Shown in pieces: positions 4,767 to 37,703 of a stretch of DNA of 41,120 nt. Each line of letters opens with the position of its first letter. The stretch's first letter is position 1. Source of the stretch: Candidatus Gastranaerophilales bacterium (GTDB lineage: Bacteria; Cyanobacteriota; Vampirovibrionia; Gastranaerophilales; Gastranaerophilaceae); contig JAFQHZ010000010.1 in the NCBI GenBank assembly GCA_017415185.1, positions 1-41,120 on the forward strand, read 5' to 3'. The notes under the pieces were generated by a model. The model was not told where the DNA came from. It did not search any database and worked only from the letters and a program-made list of their open reading frames with translations. Both the position numbers and the translations under genes were made by a program.

Positions 4767-5837
4767 ATGAGTAAAATTTTTACACCCGACATACTTAGTT
4801 TGATAGCGATAGCGGTTGCTTTCCTACTTTCGTTGGGGCTTGATCCAACAGTATTTAGCTTTGGAATAATGATAGCAGGGTTTATATTATCCTTGTATTC
4901 TTGCGTTTCAAACGATTCAATACAAACATTAGGAACATTTTTAAATACAACGAAAGACCGCCCAGCTTGGCAAATTTGGCTTTATGTTAGTGCTGTAATG
5001 GCTACAACTTTTGCAGTTGGTTGGGTTATGAATGATGGAGATATGGCATTTGGAAGGTTGGATAGAATTCCTCATGCGCAAATTTTTTATTGGTGGCATA
5101 TTTTACCTCCATTGATTCTTTTGTTTTTAACCAGAAAAGGAATTCCTGTTGCAACGGCGTTTTTGATTGTTAGCGTATTTTCTTCAACAACAGTTGTTGG
5201 CTTAATGATTATGAAATCTTTTGTTGGCTATGTTATGGCTTTGATTTCATCAATGATTCTATATTTCTTTATTGCAAGACGTGTTGAAAAAGTATTTTTA
5301 TATTTAAAAAATAAACCTATTTCAAAAGGTTGGATTGTTGCAAAATGGCTTTCAACAGCCTTTTTGTGGAGTGCTTGGCTGTTGCAAGACGGAGCAGTTT
5401 TGTTTATTTATCTTCCTCGTAAATTGACTTTGTTGCAAATGATATTAAGTTTAAGTGTTTTTGCTCTTTTGCTACTTCTTCTTTGTTTTAAACGAGGCGG
5501 AGAGATTCAAAACATTGTTAAATTAAAAACAAATACGCAAGATGTTCGTTCTGCTACTTTGATTGATTGCGTTTATGCTTGCATTTTGTTATATTTCCAA
5601 ACCGTGAATAATATTCCAATGTCTACAACTTGGGTATTTTTAGGGGTATTAGCAGGAAGAGAAATTGCTCTTTATAATCGTTTAAGATTTATTACAGAGA
5701 AAAAAGTTTATAAGCATTTAATTAAAGACTTAACAAAAGCAATCATCGGGCTTGTTGTTTCAATTGCAGTTGTTTTTGTTTTGAACAATCATCATAAAAT
5801 TATTGAAGTATTAATGCACTATATTAGTCTTCATTAA
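4767..5837 (+). CDS. Polytopic membrane protein, possibly PiT/PHO4-like
   Basis: The product is 356 aa with about nine or ten hydrophobic segments. Two short motifs recall the inverted repeats of PiT inorganic phosphate permeases: SNDSIQTLGTFLNT near residue 48 (compare GANDVANA) and NNIPMSTTWVFLGVLAGRE near residue 283 (compare N.P.STT...G...G). This match is by eye and the rest of the sequence is not diagnostic, so an ion or phosphate transporter is plausible but unproven. It starts 15 nt after yebC. Its 3' end overlaps the 3' end of the opposite-strand gene by 14 bp with no terminator between. Confidence 0.6.
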   Translation: MSKIFTPDILSLIAIAVAFLLSLGLDPTVFSFGIMIAGFILSLYSCVSNDSIQTLGTFLNTTKDRPAWQIWLYVSAVMATTFAVGWVMNDGDMAFGRLDRIPHAQIFYWWHILPPLILLFLTRKGIPVATAFLIVSVFSSTTVVGLMIMKSFVGYVMALISSMILYFFIARRVEKVFLYLKNKPISKGWIVAKWLSTAFLWSAWLLQDGAVLFIYLPRKLTLLQMILSLSVFALLLLLLCFKRGGEIQNIVKLKTNTQDVRSATLIDCVYACILLYFQTVNNIPMSTTWVFLGVLAGREIALYNRLRFITEKKVYKHLIKDLTKAIIGLVVSIAVVFVLNNHHKIIEVLMHYISLH

Positions 5838-6651
5838 TTTTTGAAGATAAAAATTTAATAGCTTTATTAAGTTCAGAGTTGAATATGTCGTTATCGCCAA
5901 AATCAGCTCTGAATTCTTCATTTTGAAGGATTTCTTTGAGCTCTTCTAAAGCTAAAAGTGCTGTTTCGTTTGTTGATTTGTTAGGAGAAATTTTTAATAA
6001 ATATTCGCCTTCGTCATAAATTGGAGTTTCAAACCAAGAATTTTCGCTTTTGCCAAAATAAGTTATTTCTATTTTGCCTCTTTTTTCGTCTGACGGGGCT
6101 GCAAAATAAACCAAAAGGGAATCGTTTTTGCCATTTTTTCTCATGGCTATTGTTGGATTATTTTTCCAATCTTTTCCGTGATTTCTTGAGATTGCAAAAG
6201 GGACATTGTATTTTGTTCCTGAAGGATTAAAACCGTCAAATTTTCTTACAGTTGTTCTTTTTTTGGATATGGAAGCTTTATTGAATACATCTTCATATCT
6301 GTCCTCTTGAACAAGCTCTCCGTTTTTATATCTGTTTATAATAAATTTTGCGCCATTGTTGTATGTTGTGTGTCTAATGATTTCACCTTTGGCGTTGTAT
6401 TCATCAAGACAAGCGCCATAGGGAATATAGCTATCTTTGCCTTTGATAAATAATCTATTTCCTGATTGCATAAACATATCAGGGCTGAATTCTTGTTTTC
6501 CTCTGTAATATTTTCTTGAAACGGCAACATCATCGCCGATATTGCGCTCAAAAGTATCTTGCCCTTTAAAATTAATTGGGTTTGATTTTGCTGAGTTGTT
6601 TTTATATTGAAAATTATTTCTAAATATATTTTGAATACTTGTTATTTGCAT
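5824..6651 (-). CDS. Hypothetical protein with N-terminal 'INFKG' motif
   Basis: The product is 275 aa, unrecognised. The first 30 residues are Asn/Ser/Phe-rich and disordered-looking and end in PINFKGQDTF, after which an ordinary mixed domain follows. The middle (YGACLDEYNAKGEIIRHTTYNNGAKFIINRYKNGELV) resembles the loose beta-repeat style of proteins that report text-like 'YN..G' strands. No classical signal peptide and no membrane span are seen. Similar N-termini occur at 9818 and 28733. No Shine-Dalgarno is evident before the ATG. It converges on and overlaps the gene ending at 5837. Confidence 0.65.
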   Translation of the reverse strand: MQITSIQNIFRNNFQYKNNSAKSNPINFKGQDTFERNIGDDVAVSRKYYRGKQEFSPDMFMQSGNRLFIKGKDSYIPYGACLDEYNAKGEIIRHTTYNNGAKFIINRYKNGELVQEDRYEDVFNKASISKKRTTVRKFDGFNPSGTKYNVPFAISRNHGKDWKNNPTIAMRKNGKNDSLLVYFAAPSDEKRGKIEITYFGKSENSWFETPIYDEGEYLLKISPNKSTNETALLALEELKEILQNEEFRADFGDNDIFNSELNKAIKFLSSKINED

Positions 6652-13339: not shown

Positions 13340-14779
13340 ATGGAAAAATACATGGGAAATAAGGCAAAATTTTGCAATAATATTTACCAGGAAATTGAAA
13401 AAATTATAAATATTAAACCTAATATGACATTGTTTGATGCTTTTTGTGGAACAACAAACGTTGGTCGTTTTTTTAAAAAGAAAAAATTTAATATAATTTC
13501 AAACGACATTAATGATTTATCTTTTGTGCTAGGAAAAGCATATATAGATTGTTGTCAAATGCCTGTTTTTGAAAAACTATATTCTAATGAAAAATTTTCT
13601 ATAATTTTAAACAATATAAAACAACATTCTAATTTTAAAAATAATATACAAAAATTAATTAAAGAAAACCAAAATACAACAGCAAAAGATTTTTTAAATA
13701 AAAATGAAAACAGTAAATTATTCGAAGTTTTGACATATTTAACATATTATTGTGATTTTAGCGATTATGATGATGTTAAATATAATTTTTTTGCTGATAA
13801 CTATTGTGCTGGTGGCAAAAATTCAAGATATATTAATCTTGTATATTTAAAAACTTTGAAAAATATTCAAAAAAAATATGCAAAAACTAAAATCGAGGAA
13901 ACTTTGGAGTCTTTTTTTGAATATCCTTTCGATGAAAAATATATTCAAAAAGCAAAAAAATATTTAGAAGAATTAAATGATGGTGTTTCTGTTCAAAAGA
14001 TAAAAAAAATGTTGGACAAGAAAAATTTAACAGGCGAGCGTTTGTTTTTTTCATTAGAACATGCAAAAAGACTTGATAACATTTTCAATACTATTTGTTA
14101 CTGGAAAAATAATAATCTTTTAAATGAATCAGAATATTATATTTTATTGACTTCTTTAATTGAAACTGTATGTATATTTTCAAACACAAGTGCAACATAT
14201 CAAGCGTTTTATAAAGAGCTTAGAGCAAACACTTTGCAAGATTTTAGATTAATTATTCCTGCAATAGATACGACTAAAATAGATTCAAAAATATACAAAA
14301 AAGACGCTTTTGATTTAATTGCAGAAATAGAAGCGGATATCATATATCTTGACCCTCCATATAATTGGCGACAATATGATTCAAACTATCATTTATTAAA
14401 TTCCATTGCAAAATTTAACGATATTAAAGACAAGGAATTATTTCAAAGTCAAATTATTGGAGCTTCAGGAGAAAATAGAGTTCAAAAATTGCAATACACA
14501 AGCTTTAATGTTAGAAACACATTTAAAGAATTGTTGTTGAAGCAATTAGAAAAAACAAAATGTAAATATATTGTTCTTAGTTATTCTGATAGTTCAAGTA
14601 ATCACGAAAGGGAACAAATTAACGATACAATATTTGAAATTGAGAACTTTTTTTCAAACAAAAGTTTGTTTGAATTTTATAAGGTTGTAAAAATAAAAAG
14701 TCAGAATTTTGAAAGTCGAAAAGGAAATAAAAAAGAAAATATTAATGAACTTTTGTTTATTGCGAAAAAATCCAATTAA
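13340..14779 (+). CDS. Adenine-specific DNA methyltransferase (COG3392 type), M2
   Basis: The product is 479 aa. Opening MEKYMGNKAKF is the D12-class start; motif I is LFDAFCGTTNVGRFF; motif IV is DPPYN at 338-342 within IIYLDPPYNWRQYDSNYHLL, the characteristic COG3392 form. It begins 4 nt after the M1 stop. It shares layout but little central sequence with M1, so the two probably recognise the two different strands of a non-palindromic site. No specificity subunit, controller protein or integrase is visible beside it, and no clear terminator follows. Confidence 0.85.
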   Translation: MEKYMGNKAKFCNNIYQEIEKIINIKPNMTLFDAFCGTTNVGRFFKKKKFNIISNDINDLSFVLGKAYIDCCQMPVFEKLYSNEKFSIILNNIKQHSNFKNNIQKLIKENQNTTAKDFLNKNENSKLFEVLTYLTYYCDFSDYDDVKYNFFADNYCAGGKNSRYINLVYLKTLKNIQKKYAKTKIEETLESFFEYPFDEKYIQKAKKYLEELNDGVSVQKIKKMLDKKNLTGERLFFSLEHAKRLDNIFNTICYWKNNNLLNESEYYILLTSLIETVCIFSNTSATYQAFYKELRANTLQDFRLIIPAIDTTKIDSKIYKKDAFDLIAEIEADIIYLDPPYNWRQYDSNYHLLNSIAKFNDIKDKELFQSQIIGASGENRVQKLQYTSFNVRNTFKELLLKQLEKTKCKYIVLSYSDSSSNHEREQINDTIFEIENFFSNKSLFEFYKVVKIKSQNFESRKGNKKENINELLFIAKKSN

Positions 14780-14967
14780 GCAAGTGTTTTCCTGACTTTG
14801 ATGACTTTTTTATTCATATTTTATTACTGTTATATTTGCGAAATATATATCAAATATATAATTTCTTGTTACATTTCTTAATAAATGCCTTAAATTTTGT
14901 CAATAAAAAATAAAATTTATTTTTTATTAATATGTAAACCTAAACCCCAAGAAAAGAGAGTATTGAT
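14780..14967. other. AT-rich intergenic region with long palindrome
   Basis: Contains a near-perfect AT palindrome (14902-14914 pairing with 14916-14928) and the element ACATTTCTTAATAAA (14871-14885), which recurs upstream of the next paralog. No gene is supported. Confidence 0.45.
14871..14885 (+). promoter_or_regulatory. Shared upstream element of the EF-hand paralogs, copy 1
   Basis: ACATTTCTTAATAAA lies 97 bp before the ATG at 14968. The identical 15-mer lies 96 bp before the ATG of the paralog at 16650. A second CTTAA follows 12 bp later. Identity plus conserved distance suggest a common regulator site. Confidence 0.5.
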
Positions 14968-16437
14968 ATGGCATTAATTTCCCAAGAAGTTTTAAAACAA
15001 GCTCAAGCAGCAACGGTTGCTGCTAATCCAAGCGGAAATGCCGGTGGAACAACTGTTTATTCTGCAACTGCTGTGACTATGGGTCAAAGCTATGATGCGA
15101 ATATCTATGATGATTTTTATGGTAAAACAGACGAATACACTGGATACAATAGAGCTTCTGATGCAGCCTTTGATTTACAAAAACATGGCGACGGCTTATT
15201 TGATAGAACAATCATGGATAGCGTTTGCAATGTTGAACATAACTTGATTAACAACCAAGACTGGAGAGTTGATTTAATTGAAGAAGATGCAAATGGCGAT
15301 GGCGTTCTTGACGAAAGTGATGCTAAAAGCGTAGCTTTGCTTGATGCAATTGTTGATTCATTTGATTCAGAATTAGACTTATACATTGAAAATAGATTAC
15401 AAGAAGTAATTAGCGCTTATGGTCCAGGATGTAATTACAACTTAAAAGCAATTTTTGGTTCTCCAAATTCTCCTGCAACTATTGAACTAGCAAAACTTGG
15501 TATCAGAGCAGACGCAATAGGTGATCATGACGCTTGGCAAAACAGAACTTATTCCTTCTCTTTAGTTAATATGGAAGGTACGGACGGAATGAGTGATGAA
15601 GAAATTTTGGCTCATGTGTATGCTGAAGATGCTGAAATTTTAGAAGATTCAAACGGCAAAAAAGGTAGCATTATTTTTGCAGATTGTTTAACAGCAGACG
15701 GCACTGCACAAGGCGCAGAAACTAATATATCAAGTATTTTAGACCAATTAGGATATGAATGTATATCTAAAGCAGACTTTATGGGCAATAGACAAGGATA
15801 TGAAGATTTAATTGCAAATATTCAAACTGGCTTAGATAACAATTTATATGCTGGCTCAGGTCAAACAATTAACAATAAATACGGCAGAACTCTAACAATG
15901 GCTCAAGGTGTAAGCGCAGTATTTGGCGGTATTAACGGTAATGCTTATGGTAATAAAGGATGGTTCTGTAAAGCCTTGACATTTGAACATACGTTAGATG
16001 CTGTTAATGCAAGAGGTGCTTCATTATACCAAGGCGGAAGAGCTGTAAGAGGCGCTGCAGTTAATTTCGGTATAACAAATTCAAAACCTGATTTTGGCTC
16101 AATTGAAACGCTTTCTGATAAATATGCAGAAACAATTGCGATTGCAAATGATGAAAATGTTGATTTACAAACAAGAATGGAAGCTCAAAAAGAAGCTGAA
16201 GAAATCCAAAGACAAATCGCAGAAAAATCAATGAACTTAACAGAAGCTGAAAAGCAAGATATTCAACAACAAATCGCTGTGGCAGGACAAGCAAACTTCA
16301 ATAGTGCAGTTAAAGACGCACAAGCTGCAGTTGACGAAGCAATCGAAAATGGCGAAGATGTTGATGAAGTTATTGAAACAATTGCTTCTCAATACGGAGT
16401 TGATGCTGACAAGCTTGCTGATGAAATAGATATGTAA
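14968..16437 (+). CDS. Hypothetical protein with EF-hand loop, tandem paralog 1
   Basis: The product is 489 aa, unrecognised. It opens MALISQEVLKQAQAAT with no hydrophobic signal peptide. A canonical EF-hand calcium loop (DANGDGVLDESD) sits near residue 112. A conserved core shared with the next gene includes RTYSFSLVN and AQGAETNISSILDQLGYEC. A helical, Glu/Gln/Ala-rich C-terminal region follows, ending with VIETIASQYGVDADKLADEI. The gene lies alone between a long intergenic region and tandem terminators. The Ser/Asn/Asp-rich composition and the absence of a Sec signal suggest export by a non-Sec route or a structural role. Both are guesses. Confidence 0.7.
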   Translation: MALISQEVLKQAQAATVAANPSGNAGGTTVYSATAVTMGQSYDANIYDDFYGKTDEYTGYNRASDAAFDLQKHGDGLFDRTIMDSVCNVEHNLINNQDWRVDLIEEDANGDGVLDESDAKSVALLDAIVDSFDSELDLYIENRLQEVISAYGPGCNYNLKAIFGSPNSPATIELAKLGIRADAIGDHDAWQNRTYSFSLVNMEGTDGMSDEEILAHVYAEDAEILEDSNGKKGSIIFADCLTADGTAQGAETNISSILDQLGYECISKADFMGNRQGYEDLIANIQTGLDNNLYAGSGQTINNKYGRTLTMAQGVSAVFGGINGNAYGNKGWFCKALTFEHTLDAVNARGASLYQGGRAVRGAAVNFGITNSKPDFGSIETLSDKYAETIAIANDENVDLQTRMEAQKEAEEIQRQIAEKSMNLTEAEKQDIQQQIAVAGQANFNSAVKDAQAAVDEAIENGEDVDEVIETIASQYGVDADKLADEIDM

Positions 16438-16461
16438 TAAAAATAAACGGTATATCTTGAT

Positions 16462-16488
16462 AAAAAGATGGCGAAAGCCATCTTTTTT
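16462..16488 (+). terminator. Rho-independent terminator
   Basis: AGATGGC/GCCATCT stem (16466-16472, 16477-16483) with a GAAA tetraloop, preceded by A's and followed by T6. Confidence 0.93.
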
Positions 16489-16512
16489 GTTTTGTTTTTT
16501 GTAACAAGTTCT

Positions 16513-16537
16513 AAAAGCCCCTATTAGTGGGCTTTTC
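16513..16537 (+). terminator. Second, tandem terminator
   Basis: AAAAGCCC (16513-16520) pairs with GGGCTTTT (16529-16536) across an 8-nt loop. It follows the first terminator by 24 bp and fully insulates the two paralogs from each other. Confidence 0.75.
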
Positions 16538-16553
16538 GCTTTTTAATTACTTA

Positions 16554-16568
16554 ACATTTCTTAATAAA
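16554..16568 (+). promoter_or_regulatory. Shared upstream element of the EF-hand paralogs, copy 2
   Basis: ACATTTCTTAATAAA, identical to 14871-14885 and at the same distance from its start codon. Here it is part of CTTAACATTTCTTAATAAA, two CTTAA units 10 bp (one helical turn) apart. Confidence 0.5.
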
Positions 16569-16592
16569 AAACAAAGCAAAAAGGCAATAATT

Positions 16593-16619
16593 TTATATAT
16601 ATAAACTTTATATATATAA
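16593..16619 (+). repeat. Pair of 12-bp palindromes
   Basis: TTATATATATAA occurs twice (16593-16604 and 16608-16619), 3 bp apart, immediately upstream of the ribosome site of the second paralog. It may be promoter -10 material or an operator. Confidence 0.4.
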
Positions 16620-16635
16620 GAAACAACTAATATAT

Positions 16636-16649
16636 AAGGAGTCCCCCCC
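16636..16649 (+). promoter_or_regulatory. Ribosome site with C7 tract before the start codon
   Basis: AAGGAG (16636-16641), one T, then seven consecutive C's (16643-16649) directly abutting the ATG. A C7 run is conspicuous in this AT-rich DNA. Its length sets the spacing between the ribosome site and the start codon (8 nt as read). Confidence 0.6.
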
Positions 16650-18209
16650 ATGGCTTTAGTCAACGAAGAATTATTAAAGGCTGCGCAACCAGCAGCTAAA
16701 CCTGTTACATACACCCCTCAAACAGTATCAGATCCTGTTGCTACTACAAATTCAACACCTTCAGGTGCTGGTAGTGCAAGTTATCCAACTGTAGTAATGG
16801 CACCATCTACTTCAGATTTTTATTATGATAATGTTGATATTCACACTGCAACTTATGGTAGTAGCAGCAGTAGCAGCAGCAATGATGATGACGATGATAC
16901 AAATAATGTAAATAATGGTCTTCCAATTTGGTTTCAAGCTTCAAGCTTTAGAGATGAAAATGATAATATCACAAACGAGCTTGTTGATGAAAAAATGGCA
17001 AATGGCGAAGATCTGCAAGGTATTGTAACAAAAGATATGGTAAATCAAACGGTTGACGATTTAGCAACGTTTGAATTAAATGAAAATGGCGAATATACCC
17101 TATTAAAATCTGATTGTTATGCAGGCGGATTAACTTGGGGTGGCGGCATTGTAAATAATGGCTGTACTCAAAGAGGCGTTTATACTGTTGCTGCTGGTGA
17201 TACAAGAACAATTACTTATGTTGATGATAATGGTAATACTGTAACTCGTTATGCAGCGGCTGCAATGGCAGATTCATTCGATTGTGCGCAAGACTTATAT
17301 ATTGAATCAATGATTCCTCAATTGGTTAAAGAATACGGCGCATGGACTTATGCAAAAGAACACAATGGCGTAACTCATGATGGTATGATGCAAAATGCAA
17401 AAGAAATTGAAGAAAAATATGGCATTAGAATCACAGAAATTGAATGTGAGGATGTAGCTGGAAAATATAGAACATATTCATTTTCATTAGTTGATAACGA
17501 AGGTAATGTAATTGAAAATACAGATGGTTCAAAAGCAAGTATCATTTGGGGCGATTGGGTAATTCCAGACGGAAATGCTCAAGGCGCAGAAAACAATTTA
17601 TCAAGTATTTTAGACCAATTAGGATATGAATGCGTATCTAAAGCTGACTTTATCAATAATGAAGCTCTTGGTGGCGCAGAAGGATACCACGAAATGTTGG
17701 GTATGGTTGCTCAAGATGTTGAAGCAATAAGAAATGGTCAAGAAGGCAAGTTCTCAAGAGCTGGTTCAGTTAAAGACACAGATTTATATCTAAGCTCAAC
17801 ATTTATTTGGGGCAATATTGAAAGCGGCGGATTTGGCTCAAGCAAATATGGTAATGCAACCGTTCCTGCTGGAAGCTCTGGAATATATGCAGACCTTGAT
17901 GGCGATAATTTAGTAAGCGATGGCGAAGCTGATATTGAAACAGATCCAACTGCTGAAGGCGCAGATGGCGCTAAAGGCGAAGACGATGAAGACGGCGAAA
18001 ACCAAGGAACAACTCAAACAAATGGCGAAGCGCAACAAACTGGAGATGGTCAGCAAGCAGTTGCAATCACAAATGCTAATGTTAATGAACTTGAAGATTT
18101 AATTGCAGCAGCTCAAGAAGAAAATCCAGAAGTTGATGTTGATGATATTATCGCAGAATATGCTGAAGATAATAATTTAGACGAAAAAGAATTAGCAAGA
18201 ATGCTATAA
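16650..18209 (+). CDS. Hypothetical protein with EF-hand-like loop, tandem paralog 2
   Basis: The product is 519 aa, unrecognised. It starts MALVNEELLKAAQPA, parallel to the upstream paralog, and has no Sec signal. A Ser/Asp simple-repeat linker (GSSSSSSSNDDDDDTNN; AGY and GAT trinucleotide repeats at about 16858-16900) separates the N-terminus from the core. Shared core: KYRTYSFSLVDNEG and AQGAENNLSSILDQLGYEC. A calcium-type loop DLDGDNLVSDGE lies near residue 418, at a different place from that of paralog 1. An acidic Gly/Glu/Asp linker and a short C-terminal helix (DIIAEYAEDNNLDEKELARML) follow, the latter resembling paralog 1's end. Probable surface or secreted protein (inference only). 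Confidence 0.72.
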   Translation: MALVNEELLKAAQPAAKPVTYTPQTVSDPVATTNSTPSGAGSASYPTVVMAPSTSDFYYDNVDIHTATYGSSSSSSSNDDDDDTNNVNNGLPIWFQASSFRDENDNITNELVDEKMANGEDLQGIVTKDMVNQTVDDLATFELNENGEYTLLKSDCYAGGLTWGGGIVNNGCTQRGVYTVAAGDTRTITYVDDNGNTVTRYAAAAMADSFDCAQDLYIESMIPQLVKEYGAWTYAKEHNGVTHDGMMQNAKEIEEKYGIRITEIECEDVAGKYRTYSFSLVDNEGNVIENTDGSKASIIWGDWVIPDGNAQGAENNLSSILDQLGYECVSKADFINNEALGGAEGYHEMLGMVAQDVEAIRNGQEGKFSRAGSVKDTDLYLSSTFIWGNIESGGFGSSKYGNATVPAGSSGIYADLDGDNLVSDGEADIETDPTAEGADGAKGEDDEDGENQGTTQTNGEAQQTGDGQQAVAITNANVNELEDLIAAAQEENPEVDVDDIIAEYAEDNNLDEKELARML

Positions 18210-18230
18210 AAATAAATTTTTGGGGGACAT

Positions 18231-18268
18231 AATAAGCCGAGTGCATTTCAAGCATTCGGCTTATTTTT
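18231..18268 (+). terminator. Rho-independent terminator
   Basis: AATAAGCCGAGTGC pairs with GCATTCGGCTTATT (one G-T pair) around a short loop, followed by a T-run. Confidence 0.9.
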
Positions 18269-18310
18269 AATCATGAAATATGTGCTAATATAAAGAAAAG
18301 AGGGATTAGC

Positions 18311-20122
18311 ATGAAAGTATTATTTTTGTTTCCACCGCAATGGATGCCAATAAGTCCGCATTTTGCTATTGCAACATTAATGGGGCAATTTGAAAATTCG
18401 CCTTATGAAGCAACTATGATGGATTTAAATATCGATTTTTATAATAAAATTTTGACTCGAAAATATGTTTCAAATGCTTTGCAAAGAGCAAAAGCAATGC
18501 TTGGCGAAACAAAAGAAGAGATAAAAACAATTTATCAAAAAGGCAAAAAATTTGAAGATTATCCTTTTGAATGGAGAAACAAAATCGCAAAATCTTCAAT
18601 GCTTTTAAATATGTTTCAAAAATATGAACGTCAGCTCGATAGAACGCCAATATTGGTTGAACAAGCGGTTGAAATTATGAAATCAAAAGAGCATTTTTAT
18701 AATCCAAAATTGTTTGTTAATGCGGTTAATACGATAAATACTGCTCTAGAAATATGTTCAGCCCCTTATTTCCCTACAAAACTAGGATATATTAGCTACT
18801 CTAATGATTTAATGAAATTAGATTTTGAATCTATAAAATATTATGTTTTTGATAAAGAATCTAATATATTTAGGGATTATTACGAAAGTGTAGTTGGCGA
18901 TATTGTTAAGCAAAACGCCGATTATATCGGAATTTCAATTAATTCTTCAAGCCAAATTGTTGCGGGTTTAACTTTGGCTAATATTTTAAAACAAAAAACA
19001 AAAGCCCATATTAGTATCGGCGGAAATCATTTTGGACGTGTCGCAGACGCCATTGAAAAACATCCAGAATTTTTTGATTTGTTCTGTGATTCCGTTGCTC
19101 TTGAAGAAGGGGAAATTCCTGTTTATAAACTAGCACAACATGTGAATGGCGAAATTCCTGTTGAAGAAGTTCCAAATTTAATGTATATAAAAGACGGAAA
19201 AGTTTGCAAAAATGAAATCATTGAACCTTTAAAATTGAACGATATGAAAATGGCAAGTTTGAAGGGATATGACTTATCAAAATATTTTATTCCCGAAATT
19301 GTAATGCCGTTTCAAACTTCTCGTGGCTGTTATTGGAGAAAATGCAGCTTTTGCGATCATGATTTTGGAATGTGTTATAACATAAAAGATTTGGATAAAT
19401 TGATTGATGAAATAAAATATTTCAATCAAAATTATGGAATCACAAAATTTGAATTTATTGATGAAGCAATCAGTCCTTCATATATGAAAAAAATGTGTCA
19501 AAGAATAATTGACGAAAAATTGGATATTCAGTTTTTCTGCGATGCTCGACTTGAAGAAGGGTTTGATAAAGAATTGTTCGAACTTGCCTCTCGTGCTGGG
19601 CTAAAAATGGTTCTTTGGGGTTACGAATCTGGTTCTCGAAGGATTATGGATTTAATCAATAAAGGAATTGATATCGATAATCGTTTGAATATTTTAAGGG
19701 CGGCAAGAGAAGCTGGAATATTCAATTTTGCGTTTATTTTCTTTGGTTTTCCTGCTGAAACAAAGCAAGACGCTATGATGACCATCGATGAAATATGCGC
19801 TAATACAGACATTATTAATACTTATGGGAAAAGTATGTTTACCATGGGCAAACATACAAAACTCAGAGAAGCTCCTGAAAAATATGGCGTAATTGGAGAG
19901 ACTTATCAAGAAGCTGAATTTTCGCCAACTTATGTTTATGAAGCTGTTGGAATGAGCAAAAAAGAGCTTAATGAAATGATGGATTTGTGCTCTAAAAGGG
20001 CAAATGAAGCTTATGGCAATGCCTTAACTTTTCATTTGTTAAGCAGGGAAATTATATTGCTATATTTGTGTAAATATACAATTGATCAAGTGTGTGATTA
20101 TAAATTTGAGGATGTAAAATAA
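18311..20122 (+). CDS. B12-binding-domain radical SAM protein
   Basis: The product is 603 aa. The N-terminal part (LFLFPPQWMPISPHFAIATL; later DYIGISINSSSQIVAGL and ISIGGNHFG) matches the cobalamin-binding-like domain of this family. The radical SAM cluster site is C340-x4-C345-x2-C348 in SRGCYWRKCSFCD, a spacing one residue longer than the textbook CX3CX2C but seen in this subfamily as I recall it. Partner motifs FEFIDEAISP, GYESGSRR and FIFFGFPAET follow. The substrate is unknown. A GAGGGA site precedes the ATG, and it overlaps the next gene by 1 nt (TAATG). Position at the head of a surface-polymer cluster hints at a lipid, sugar or peptide modification. Confidence 0.85.
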   Translation: MKVLFLFPPQWMPISPHFAIATLMGQFENSPYEATMMDLNIDFYNKILTRKYVSNALQRAKAMLGETKEEIKTIYQKGKKFEDYPFEWRNKIAKSSMLLNMFQKYERQLDRTPILVEQAVEIMKSKEHFYNPKLFVNAVNTINTALEICSAPYFPTKLGYISYSNDLMKLDFESIKYYVFDKESNIFRDYYESVVGDIVKQNADYIGISINSSSQIVAGLTLANILKQKTKAHISIGGNHFGRVADAIEKHPEFFDLFCDSVALEEGEIPVYKLAQHVNGEIPVEEVPNLMYIKDGKVCKNEIIEPLKLNDMKMASLKGYDLSKYFIPEIVMPFQTSRGCYWRKCSFCDHDFGMCYNIKDLDKLIDEIKYFNQNYGITKFEFIDEAISPSYMKKMCQRIIDEKLDIQFFCDARLEEGFDKELFELASRAGLKMVLWGYESGSRRIMDLINKGIDIDNRLNILRAAREAGIFNFAFIFFGFPAETKQDAMMTIDEICANTDIINTYGKSMFTMGKHTKLREAPEKYGVIGETYQEAEFSPTYVYEAVGMSKKELNEMMDLCSKRANEAYGNALTFHLLSREIILLYLCKYTIDQVCDYKFEDVK

Positions 20123-20517
20123 TGAGTTTTGAAGATTTTAATCAATTTCAAGAAGAGCTTGAACGTGCGCAAAAAGAGCAAGAAGAGCTTTCAAAATTAA
20201 ATAAAAAAAAGGAAGAAGGCGCAAACGATTGGGGCTTTGGCGAAGTTTTAAAAGAAAGACAAAAGCATAAAGATGCCCTAAGGGAAAGGCTTTTGGCACA
20301 AAATTTCAGCGAAAAAGAAATCGAAAAATTATTTAAAATTATTTCAAAAGCTGAAGAAGAAATGGAAGAAGTTAAATCTAAATTTGATTATAAGGCAAAA
20401 ATTCGAGGTTCAGGAGTTAAACTTCATAATGATTTGATTGAAATACAAAACAAAATGAAAAAAGACTTTGATGAAGAATTTAATCAAATGCTTAAAAATA
20501 AAAAAGGAAATCAATAG
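20122..20517 (+). CDS. Small coiled-coil protein
   Basis: The product is 131 aa, highly charged and helical throughout (EELERAQKEQEELSKLNKKKEEG; EKEIEKLFKIISKAEEEMEEVKSKF), with one short non-helical GANDWGFGEV. No family recognised. Its start overlaps the radical SAM stop by 1 nt, so it is translationally coupled and may be a partner of that enzyme. Confidence 0.7.
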   Translation: MSFEDFNQFQEELERAQKEQEELSKLNKKKEEGANDWGFGEVLKERQKHKDALRERLLAQNFSEKEIEKLFKIISKAEEEMEEVKSKFDYKAKIRGSGVKLHNDLIEIQNKMKKDFDEEFNQMLKNKKGNQ

Positions 20518-27315: not shown

Positions 27316-27589
27316 TTTTGTTGCTCAACTTCGCTCGAGTTTAGTCCAGTGTCCGCACTAGCCCACCGCTTCATCAGCGCTGTGCAAGTGCTTCACATCC
27401 TTATGCTCTCGCTTTGCTCAGCTAGTCCATCGGACTACGCTTCGCTTCGCTCGAGTTGCTCCTGTGAAATCAAAGATTTCTACGTCGCCCATCTAAGGTC
27501 TGCGTGCTCGTCGCCTGCTCAACGCAGCCGCCGTCGCACTTCGCACAGTTATGCTCTCACTTGTTTCGCCAAGCTCAGCAGAGCTAGGC
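27316..27589. repeat. GC-rich hairpin-rich spacer between fliD and rlmN
   Basis: This 274-bp stretch is far richer in G+C than everything around it. GCTCAACTTCGCTCGAGTT (27323-27341) recurs with one mismatch at 27588-27606 and more loosely at 27439-27457. Perfect small hairpins occur at 27423-27437 (TAGTCC/GGACTA), 27466-27480 (GAAATC/GATTTC) and 27572-27585 (AGCTC/GAGCT). The last repeat copy overlaps the end of rlmN. An open frame across it is low-complexity and not credible as protein. Confidence 0.6.
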
Positions 27590-28623
27590 TCAACTGCGCT
27601 CGAGTTTGCCTGCTAATTGTCCGCAAGCAGCGTCAATATCGGCGCCACGCTCAAGGCGGATTGTAACTTTTTTGCCTGAAGCCTCAAGGAGATATTTAAA
27701 TTTCAACATATCTTTTTTGATTGGTTTTTGAAACCATTACCATCATCAACTGGATTATATGGAATCAAATTAATATTGCATTTAATATCTTTTAAAAATT
27801 CAATCAACTCCAAAGCACATTCTTTTGTGTCGTTTAAACCGCCAATTAAAATGTATTCTATTGTAATTCTATCTTTAGTGGCTGAATTATATTCTTTTAA
27901 TGCTTTTTTTAATTCTTCTATATTGTATTTTTTCTCAATTGGCATAATTTTTTCTCTTATTTCGTGGTTTGGCGCATGGAGAGAAATTGCCAGCGTTGGG
28001 ATTAAATCGTTTTTGGCTAATTCATAAATTTTTGGAACAATGCCTGAAGTTGAGAGTGTCATTCTGCGAATTGAAATTTGAAGATTTTTATTGATTAGCT
28101 CGATTGCTTTTTTGATGTTTTCGAAATTGTCGAGCGGTTCGCCTTGACCCATAAATACAACATTTGTGATTTTTAAATCTGTATCATTTTGAGCTAATAA
28201 AATTTGCGAAACGATTTCATTAGCTTCTAAATTTCTTTTGAAGCCATTTTTGCCTGTTGCGCAAAATTTGCAACCCATTTTGCATCCAACTTGGCAAGAA
28301 ACACACATTGATAGATTGCTTCGATTATCGAATCGCATTAAAACCGTTTCAGCACAAAGTCCATCTTTAAATTCAATTAAATATTTAATTGTTCCATCAC
28401 AGGATATTTGGCGAGTTTTAATTTTGCAATCTAATATTTGACAATTTTCGCTTAAAAATTGTCTAAATTCTTTTTTGACATCTGTCATATCATCAAAAGA
28501 TTTTGCGTTTTTTGCCCAAATCCAAGAGTGGATTTGCTCTGCTCTGAATTTTTTTTCGCCTTGCGAAACAATATAGTCGCATAGTTCTTCTTTTGAGAAT
28601 TTTGAAAGGGTGATTTTTTCCAT
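27590..28623 (-). pseudogene. rlmN: rlmN, 23S rRNA/tRNA m2A methyltransferase, with 1-nt frameshift
   Basis: This radical SAM enzyme methylates A2503 of 23S rRNA and A37 of some tRNAs. Visible residues: E92 in GLCAETVLM, C107 (equivalent of catalytic Cys118), and the cluster C114-x3-C118-x2-C121. The frame from the ATG stops after 306 aa in NGFKNQSKKIC. Shifting one base at the A5 run (T5 on the plus strand, 27725-27729) restores FKKPIKKDMLKF and then GADIDAACGQLAGKL, the conserved end carrying the methyl-accepting Cys (codon 27623-27625), giving about 344 aa, the normal length. As read, the protein lacks that essential Cys. This is either a homopolymer sequencing error or a real inactivation. 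The upstream TAATAT lies 6 nt before the ATG. Confidence 0.9.
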
Positions 28624-28732: not shown

Positions 28733-29287
28733 ATGAATATTTCTCCAGTTAGTTGTTTAAATTTTAAAAATGTAAATTTTTTAAATAATGCAAATAATAC
28801 TGTTTCAAATGCGTACAATAGTCAAATTTCTTTTTGTGGTAACAAAGAAATTGCAGACAAAAAAGCAAGTGAAACTCTCGAAATGCTAGAATATATTGAT
28901 TCAAAATCTCAGGAAGTATTTAAAAAAGCTCAAATGTTTAAAGAAAAACAAGCTGCTCAATATCGTCCATGCGGAAATGCTTTTTATTTTTCTAGAGAAG
29001 ATGGAAAAGAAGATTCATATTGGTTTAATGGAGATAAATTAATTGTATCCTTAGGAAGAAAAGATTACAGTGGAATTTTGAAAAGCGTTGATGAAAGATT
29101 TATATTTGAAGATGGTAAATTAATTGAATATAGAAAAAATGAAAAAGGCGCAACTGGCTATGGTTTTGATTTTTCTCAAGCAGAGGTTCATTATTTAGTT
29201 GACAAAAATACAGGCAATGTAGATATCCATTTTAATGAACAAGAGCCTTTTGATGATGCGCTTAAAGCTTTAAGAAAATGGTATTAA
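28733..29287 (+). CDS. Hypothetical protein with N-terminal 'ISFCGNK' motif
   Basis: The product is 184 aa, unrecognised. An Asn-rich N-terminus (MNISPVSCLNFKNVNFLNNA) leads to QISFCGNKE at residue 31, the same type of junction as INFKGQD in the protein at 5824 and NFGALFGKK at 9818. Then a helical stretch (LEMLEYIDSKSQEVFKKAQMF) and a beta-rich domain (FYFSREDGKEDSYWFNGDKLIVSL). No Sec signal or membrane span. Single gene, divergent from rlmN. Confidence 0.62.
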   Translation: MNISPVSCLNFKNVNFLNNANNTVSNAYNSQISFCGNKEIADKKASETLEMLEYIDSKSQEVFKKAQMFKEKQAAQYRPCGNAFYFSREDGKEDSYWFNGDKLIVSLGRKDYSGILKSVDERFIFEDGKLIEYRKNEKGATGYGFDFSQAEVHYLVDKNTGNVDIHFNEQEPFDDALKALRKWY

Positions 29288-36293: not shown

Positions 36294-37703
36294 ATGAAAC
36301 AAAAACAAAAAATATTTTTTGTATATCCCCCTGCTCCCATTATGAACAGAGAAGATAGGTGTCAACAGCCAACGAGCGAGTTGGTTGTCATTCCGCCTTT
36401 GCCTCCTGTTGATATGATGAGTTTGTCTGCAATTGCCAAAAAAAGAGGTTACGAAACTCAATTTAAAGATTATAGCTTAAAAGGCGAAACGGTTTATGAT
36501 TTTCTTAGAGATTTAAGAACCTATAAACCTGATTTTCTTGTTTTAAATATTGCATCAACTACGCTAGAAAAAGATTTATCTATTTTATCTAACGCTAGAG
36601 ATTTATTGGAAGACACCGTTGTTATTGTAAAAGGAGCAATATTTAACTTTAGCTCTTATTCAATTATGCAAAAATATCCAGAAATCGATGTTGCTCTTAG
36701 GGGTGAAATTGAAGAAGCTTTTGATGAAATAATTCAATATAAAAATTTTAAAGAAATTAAAGGAATTACTTATCAAATAAACAATAAAATAATTTCAACT
36801 GCTGATAGGGAATTGAAGGCTGATATTGATAATTTGCCAATATTAGATAGAAATTTAATCGATAATTCGATTTATATTCGTCCCGATACTAAAAAACCAC
36901 AAACGATAATCAGAGTATCAAAAGGTTGTCCTAATCATTGTTTCTTTTGTCTTGCAAGCCCTTTGAACGGCAAAATGGTTAGATATAGAAGCCCTGAGTT
37001 AATTTTGGATGAAATCAAGGAATGTGTTTCTTTGCACAATATTAAAGATTTTATTTTTTGGTCAGATATCTTCAATTTGAACAAAGAATGGGTGCAAAAG
37101 CTTTGCAGATTGATTATTGAATCTGGTTATAAAATCAATTTTTCCGCTAATACAAGAGTTGACACCGTTGATTGGGAAACTCTTTGTTTGATGAAAAAAG
37201 CTGGTTGCAATTTAATTTCTATGGGCGTTGAGTCGGGTTCTCAAGAATTACTTGATAAAATGGGTAAAAAAATTACTCTTGAACAAATCAAAAAAACTGT
37301 TTCAATGATTCATCGTGCAGGAATTCAAACTTATGCATATTACGTTATAGGTTTGCCTTGGGAAACGCGCGAAACTCTTAAAAAAACATTTGATTTTGCA
37401 AAAAAATTAAATACTCATTATGCAAGTTTTTATACTGCAACTGCGCTTCAAGGGACAAAATTTTATGAGTATGTCAATAAAAATCGACTTGGAGAAATTA
37501 GCCTCGAAAAACCATATATTTTCCCAAGTGTGAAGAGCTATGAATTATCAAGCCAAGAAATTTTTGAAGCAAATAAAAAATTTAATAAAGAATATTATTT
37601 AAGGGCGTCATATATCCTGAAAATGGCGTTTAGTGTTAATTCGTTGACTAAATTTAAAACTTATTATGATACTTTTATTCGTCTTTTAAAAGCTAAAAAT
37701 TAA
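36294..37703 (+). CDS. B12-binding-domain radical SAM protein (second)
   Basis: The product is 469 aa. The N-terminal cobalamin-type domain (FFVYPPAP, IPPLPPVDMMSLSAIAKKRGYE, FLVLNIASTTLEKDL) is followed by a canonical cluster motif C212-x3-C216-x2-C219 in SKGCPNHCFFC. Then DFIFWSDIFNLN, INFSANTRVD, MGVESGSQELLDKMGK and YYVIGLPWETRET. This is a typical B12-binding radical SAM methylase-like or lipid/quinone-modifying protein. Starts 2 nt after the SDR stop. Its stop overlaps the stop of zupT on the other strand. Confidence 0.88.
   Translation: MKQKQKIFFVYPPAPIMNREDRCQQPTSELVVIPPLPPVDMMSLSAIAKKRGYETQFKDYSLKGETVYDFLRDLRTYKPDFLVLNIASTTLEKDLSILSNARDLLEDTVVIVKGAIFNFSSYSIMQKYPEIDVALRGEIEEAFDEIIQYKNFKEIKGITYQINNKIISTADRELKADIDNLPILDRNLIDNSIYIRPDTKKPQTIIRVSKGCPNHCFFCLASPLNGKMVRYRSPELILDEIKECVSLHNIKDFIFWSDIFNLNKEWVQKLCRLIIESGYKINFSANTRVDTVDWETLCLMKKAGCNLISMGVESGSQELLDKMGKKITLEQIKKTVSMIHRAGIQTYAYYVIGLPWETRETLKKTFDFAKKLNTHYASFYTATALQGTKFYEYVNKNRLGEISLEKPYIFPSVKSYELSSQEIFEANKKFNKEYYLRASYILKMAFSVNSLTKFKTYYDTFIRLLKAKN

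Follow-up and report, generated by a model that had tools for sequence, protein, structure and literature searches.

Genes for a fast-changing protein family beside a B12-type radical enzyme suggest an undescribed protein-maturation system in Candidatus Gastranaerophilales

What do two adjacent genes of no assignable family do in a Candidatus Gastranaerophilales genome? The genes lie on a 41,120-nucleotide stretch of contig JAFQHZ010000010.1 (the window, by which we mean the whole stretch that was analyzed), where a preliminary description made from the letters alone had placed tandem EF-hand paralogs at 14968–18209. Both open reading frames (ORFs) are present as claimed on the forward strand and are here called P1 (14968–16437, 489 residues) and P2 (16650–18209, 519 residues). 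The best clue to the function of the P proteins stands directly after P2 and had not been mentioned: a forward-strand gene for a cobalamin-type radical S-adenosylmethionine (SAM) protein (18311–20122, 603 residues), followed on the same strand by a gene for a 131-residue protein of no known family, the helper (20122–20517). This arrangement suggests an undescribed protein-maturation system, and we put at even chances the reading that a dedicated class-B radical-SAM maturase of this lineage takes the large, folded P proteins as its substrates.

P1 and P2 are homologous. BLASTP finds one region common to both (P1 residues 127–285 and P2 residues 205–353, 40% identity, E 1e-27), and the MAL[IV] start, RTYSFSLV and AQGAE.N.SSILDQLGYEC segments are found in both proteins. 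The similar C-terminal helix that had been noted holds insofar as both ends are predicted to be helical, but BLASTP does not align them. Both proteins are strongly acidic (82 Asp and Glu against 32 Lys and Arg in P1; 95 against 26 in P2). Within the 1.87-Mb, 43-contig genome of which the window forms contig 4, P1 and P2 are the sole matches to a P1 query at E ≤ 10. The family was called unknown, and our searches agree: Pfam, NCBIfam and PDB sequences returned nothing above any cut-off, Foldseek against the PDB gave no match at E ≤ 0.001 for the P1 or P2 model (the core by itself was not searched), and a viral structure library held no match. The best structural Z scores, 3.3 for P2 and 6.0 for P1, come from unconvincing matches mainly on the C-terminal helices. 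The sole Pfam row, Ntox50 (E 0.53), was rejected as chance. A literature search, short of full texts, found no publication on a P/radical-SAM system. A first scan of genome contigs with the P1 sequence alone found nothing, and a scan with the P alignment as query found 25 loci. The closest named relatives are metagenome-assembled genomes of Candidatus Gastranaerophilales, of ‘Cyanobacteria’ and of unnamed bacteria, several of them, to judge by their titles, from rumen or gut samples. The P family changes fast and has so far turned up in no organisms other than gut relatives of cyanobacteria.

The neighboring enzyme contains a radical-SAM domain (PF04055, 50.3 bits against a cut-off of 29.5) with the cysteine motif CX4CX2C (CYWRKCSFC), which recurs in 39 of 41 enzyme rows; the other two, at contig edges, gave none in the stretch scanned. 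It matches 18 NCBIfam families, many of the B12 type and all below cut-off, the best being TIGR03975 (114.5 bits), a C-methyltransferase subfamily of ribosomally synthesized and post-translationally modified peptide (RiPP) pathways. HpnJ, BchE, PhpK and BzaD are also among these matches, and OxsB (5ul2; E 1.4e-8 over residues 193–478) gives the best match in the PDB. Because class-B radical-SAM enzymes of these kinds also act on small molecules, the main rival explanation takes P to be a subunit that partners or regulates the enzyme, perhaps as a metal sensor, while the enzyme’s real substrate would be a lipid, sugar, cofactor or RNA; we regard this as possible, though clearly on the improbable side. 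The window also encodes a second, separate B12-type radical-SAM protein (36294–37703), which scores 200 bits against the HpnJ model, below cut-off.

The linkage between enzyme and P recurs across genomes. Our survey sampled 288 genomes from the taxonomic family; like all groups searched here they are samples of larger ones, and most are draft or metagenome assemblies in which an absence may be a gap. The P family, or type A, occurs in 13 of the 288 genomes and 3 of 41 genera, and in 12 of the 28 genomes of the genus. A sister family, type B, occurs in 27 of the 288, in 25 of them strongly; two weak B-profile matches (G068 and G103, E about 1e-4, in enzyme-less genomes) are left out of the strong set. 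Every genome with type A or strong type B also has the enzyme, A or B is present in 30 of the 32 genomes with the enzyme, and eight sampled genomes hold both types. By eye from match coordinates, a type-A or type-B gene lies within about 260 bp of the radical-SAM match in 38 of 43 cases, one of the remainder being cut by a contig end and four having neither. Among 42 fetched loci with an enzyme homologue, 21 have a type-A gene, 14 a type-B gene and 7 neither; the A and B neighbors measure 267–543 residues, and the helper is present in 36. Type-A genes lie upstream on the enzyme’s strand or divergently (L032 and L054), and type-B genes always lie on the opposite strand. The enzyme is cut at a contig end in two of the seven partnerless loci (L040 and L042). 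Outside this taxonomic family, enzyme, type-B gene and helper also occur together in two genomes from another family of the order. More distant radical-SAM homologues (about 28–35% identity) have other neighbors, among the matches listed, and are not counted as part of the system. Locus L061 offers a third kind of partner: a 405-residue protein (L061:8732–9949) with the loop DANGDGQLNGMD lies beside a 42%-identical enzyme, and a 120-residue small gene (L061:6290–6652) stands upstream.

Each partner type has its own enzyme clade. Type-B proteins, of about 270–390 residues, keep the order of parts seen in type A: a stretch of low complexity at the N-terminus, where the protein is one of the longer ones, an SFDxExDxxxQ helix and then a DxxTGAEIKIxDANGNGxxExEE segment. 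An hhalign comparison of the two families gives 72.7% and E 3.2e-5, against 0.16 for the best among 20 controls with reversed or shuffled sequence, so A and B appear to be remote homologues whose likeness is weak but above all 20 controls. The enzyme tree omits one short fragment and so covers 41 of the 42 fetched loci. In it, a branch with 95/90 support sets the 14 B-linked enzymes apart from the rest, and the 20 A-linked enzymes fall within a 100/99 group along with three unlabeled rows. Because the linkage of this class-B-like radical-SAM protein with a folded family is both tight and partner-specific, we consider substrate and enzyme the best explanation.

The P tree also speaks to how the pair arose. 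P1 groups with six copies located away from the enzyme and with one unresolved copy (8 rows, 100/99), whereas P2 is the enzyme-linked member. Since P1 belongs to an old subfamily usually found elsewhere, the pair is a local arrangement; ‘tandem paralogs’ is apt for adjacent homologues but not in the sense of a recent tandem duplication. That related genomes carry the second P away from the enzyme argues against a regulatory subunit. So does divergence: compared with three related genomes, identity is 86–88% for the enzyme, 69–72% for FliD, 62–74% for the helper, 49–62% for P1 and 36–41% for P2 (RlmN, in two genomes, 90%), making P2 the fastest-changing gene among those measured; its divergence far outpaces that of the enzyme it would regulate.

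In an alignment of 29 type-A members, the invariant positions sit centrally in P. They include the S-x-D-x-x-x-D helix motif (S131, D133 and D137 of P1), which lies in SFDSELDLYIE in P1 (residues 131–141; 15358–15390) and aligns with SFDCAQDLYIE in P2 (residues 209–219; 17274–17306). Further invariant residues, in P1 numbering, are S198-L199, G230, D239...D244-G245...E251, D259, G262-Y263 and D270-F271. Part of this set forms a D-x4-DG-x5-E loop (P1 239–251, 15682–15720; P2 302–314, 17553–17591) that occupies the same site in 29 of 29 relatives and that, on our reading of the sequence, resembles an EF-hand. The AlphaFold2 model of P1 has a mean predicted local distance difference test (pLDDT) score of 77.0, with residues 61–320 at 81–97 in blocks of ten; that of P2 averages 64.5 and shows a folded middle and a helical C-terminus, with low confidence at 1–86 and 388–469. 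The N-terminus of P, modeled at low confidence, is probably disordered.

The canonical EF-hand-type loops on which the preliminary description rested its EF-hand label do exist, as DANGDGVLDESD in P1 (residues 107–118; 15286–15321) and DLDGDNLVSDGE in P2 (residues 415–426; 17892–17927). Such loops are sporadic, however, occurring in only 12 of the 29 relatives at shifting positions, and that of P2 falls in the 388–469 linker, where pLDDT is below 50. The P1 loop site recurs in P2 in degenerate form (invariant G112/G195). The statement that the two proteins carry their loops at different places is true of the canonical ones, which seem differently placed because they are the non-conserved ones; the conserved loop sits at matching sites. 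A Pfam search of P matched no EF-hand family at E ≤ 1.

The best NCBIfam match of the enzyme, to a RiPP C-methyltransferase subfamily, raises the alternative that P is a RiPP precursor, though a very long one, from which a small modified piece is released as a peptide natural product. The conserved part of P is the predicted folded central core (P1 61–320) rather than a short leader with a variable core, and no recurring protease or exporter appears in the neighbor tables. We therefore hold this alternative to be quite improbable.

The separate control proposed for the pair is supported. An exact 15-mer, ACATTTCTTAATAAA, lies 97 bp before the P1 start codon (14871–14885) and 96 bp before that of P2 (16554–16568), matching the element described there, and has three exact copies in the 1.87-Mb genome. 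In relatives, 10 of 22 type-A upstream regions (8 of 20 without the window pair) match TTACATTTCTTAATA at 12 or more of 15 positions, every one of the ten placed between −90 and −99; of 166 control ORFs of the same loci, 3 have such a match. The 22 starts are a subset of those available and include near-copies, and the P2 start at L020 was set 60 bases inside the ORF. Support for the 15-mer comes from the genome count and the relatives and not from scanning the window alone, where allowing two mismatches finds three and 11 of 100 shuffles yield as many. Before type-B genes the element is not clear (3 of 11 reach 12/15, at scattered positions). It reads as TTA-containing repeats at a spacing of about ten bases, a pattern that may resemble PhoB/OmpR-type activator binding sites.

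Two terminator-like hairpins follow P1 (16462–16487 and 16513–16536, forward strand), in agreement with the tandem terminators reported between the genes, and a further one, predicted by folding, parts P2 from the enzyme gene (18231–18265; z −4.55). Strong hairpins with a T-run stand between P2 and enzyme in all seven long-gap loci folded (z −3.8 to −5.2) and differ in stem sequence. By eye, an extended −10-like TATGnTAAAAT follows the hairpin or precedes the enzyme in many loci; in the window it reads TGTGCTAATAT (18281–18291). Together, the hairpin and −10-like sequence indicate that P and enzyme are probably separate transcripts in the seven long-gap loci, so that the presumed substrate could be made in excess. 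That P and enzyme genes adjoin there yet probably do not share one transcript also counts in favor of the rival in which P is a partner or regulatory subunit. A sigma-70 promoter scan stayed at background (13 found, 14.5 expected), and Rfam gave no match in 14700–18350.

Returning to P as an enzyme substrate, the following scheme would fit these observations. P2, and also P1, would be modified post-translationally by the neighboring cobalamin-type enzyme, with the helper as an accessory protein or chaperone. The conserved core, which holds SFDxExDxxxQ and the D-x4-DG-x5-E loop-helix, would contain the target, and the likeliest chemistry would be C-methylation. Transcription of P2 from its own regulated promoter, stopping before the enzyme gene, would let substrate exceed enzyme. 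The mature protein, acidic and probably metal-binding, would then act in a role that evolves fast, the simplest place for it being the cell surface or the space outside.

Several points weigh against this scheme. Adjacency is not proof of a substrate, and the substrate relation, like the chemistry, metal binding and export, is inferred. The enzyme reaches only 17.3 bits for the cobalamin-binding domain PF02310, below the Pfam cut-off of 32.1; its TIGR03975 score lies far under the curated cut-off of 281.85; and its CX4CX2C differs from the Cx7Cx2C of PoyB and PoyC. Five of the 42 loci (L033, L061, L062, L063 and L064) have an enzyme homologue with neither A nor B and no cut to explain it, L033 being a second copy in a genome with a complete set at L031 and the L061–L064 enzymes being 35–42% identical; at L061 a different EF-loop protein adjoins the enzyme homologue.

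Export itself supplies another rival, in which P is delivered by flagellar-type secretion to act on a host or neighbor and the radical-SAM gene is a mere passenger. Both proteins lack a Sec-like stretch, as had been stated (peak 19-residue hydropathy 0.98 in P1 and 0.74 in P2), and the probably disordered N-terminus and small helper gene would suit such a route, as would the FHIPEP genes present in all 57 genomes tested, flagellin-less ones included, and a second export set in the window’s own genome, FliE-FliF-FliH-FHIPEP at G000:C20. The apparatus is equally common with the P/enzyme system (27 of 27 genomes) and without it (30 of 30), and therefore neither supports nor excludes export of P. 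As the enzyme linkage is also too tight and partner-specific for a passenger, we judge this rival unlikely.

Least probable of all, and by our estimate very improbable, is that P is a structural protein of the flagellum or surface layer. The gene fliD follows the enzyme–helper pair in three genomes and lies 5 kb downstream in the window, but this linkage is missing in most loci, Pfam finds no SLH or flagellin domain in P, and no Sec signal is present. Nor is there a flagellin (PF00669) match in four of the five sampled type-A genomes outside the genus (G062, G240, G250 and G316, drafts with possible gaps). The earlier ‘flagellar-exported’ candidate is weakened by these genomes, though a second flagellar-type export set is present, and the flagellar link of P is weak overall.

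The export genes merit separate description. The FliE-FliF-(unnamed)-FliH-FHIPEP set occupies L114:5638–11616 (G000:C20), its FHIPEP class occurring even in flagellin-less genomes, and an apparent FliP/FliQ/FliR/FlhB-FHIPEP set, the first four named by eye, occupies L117:4441–10427 (G000:C17). A 483-residue protein (L115:9306–10757, G000:C40) matches only the second half of FHIPEP (321–654 of 657), without the membrane half, and similar ORFs occur in most of the 57 genomes.

Elsewhere in the window, just upstream of P1 (10614–14779), an HNH endonuclease gene (PF13391, 47.7 bits) precedes two D12-class adenine DNA methyltransferase genes (54.7 and 68.1 bits), a restriction-modification-like trio with no homologue found beside P in the relatives compared. 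Between fliD and rlmN, the stretch 27330–27680 is GC-rich (46–68% in most 50-base steps, against about 31% for the window), with repeated words and no Rfam match. The adjacent rlmN (27703–28623) encodes 306 residues against 343 in relatives and is broken or misassembled, because its missing C-terminal end adjoins this stretch. An N-terminus with an MQI/MNI-type start and an F-KG/F-CG motif 10–35 residues in, seen by eye at 5824–6651, at 28733–29287 and in loci L033, L053 and L105, is common to otherwise unrelated-looking proteins and may be a lineage-specific sorting motif.

Taken further, and with odds we place somewhat short of even, the evidence may describe a dedicated system in which a slow-evolving cobalamin radical-SAM enzyme and its helper put a carbon-centered modification on fast-evolving, folded, acidic metal-loop proteins. 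These would do their work on the cell surface or outside it, and the system would comprise no fewer than two partner lineages (A and B), with a separate enzyme clade for each. To our knowledge, few such enzymes that act on large proteins are known. Here the gene for the presumed protein substrate adjoins that of the enzyme in two lineages and about 30 of the genomes sampled, so that substrate, site and the part played by the helper are open to direct tests. The system would also offer a molecular way into the products of these gut bacteria, most of which are uncultured.

Among known systems, EF-hand proteins share with P1, P2 and the sister type B the canonical 12-residue loop, but in type A such loops are sporadic, Pfam gives no EF-hand match, and the conserved loop of P has 13 positions. 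OxsB has the same CX4CX2C spacing in alignment with the enzyme; its substrate class differs, and OxsB is not known to be linked to any P-like protein. The PoyB/PoyC kind of peptide C-methyltransferase (TIGR03975) is the closest NCBIfam model and likewise has its gene beside the presumed substrate, but these enzymes carry Cx7Cx2C (PMC5682303), whereas ours has CX4CX2C and scores below the curated cut-off, and its partners are proteins of about 270–540 residues with a folded core instead of a short precursor peptide. Mmp10 is a B12-dependent radical-SAM enzyme that C-methylates an arginine of methyl-coenzyme M reductase (PMC8828468). It differs in that P, the presumed substrate here, is unrelated, is encoded next to the enzyme and evolves fast, a helper gene is present, and the chemistry is presumptive. 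The likeness is that a cobalamin radical-SAM enzyme acts on a large folded protein rather than a short peptide, as we propose for P.

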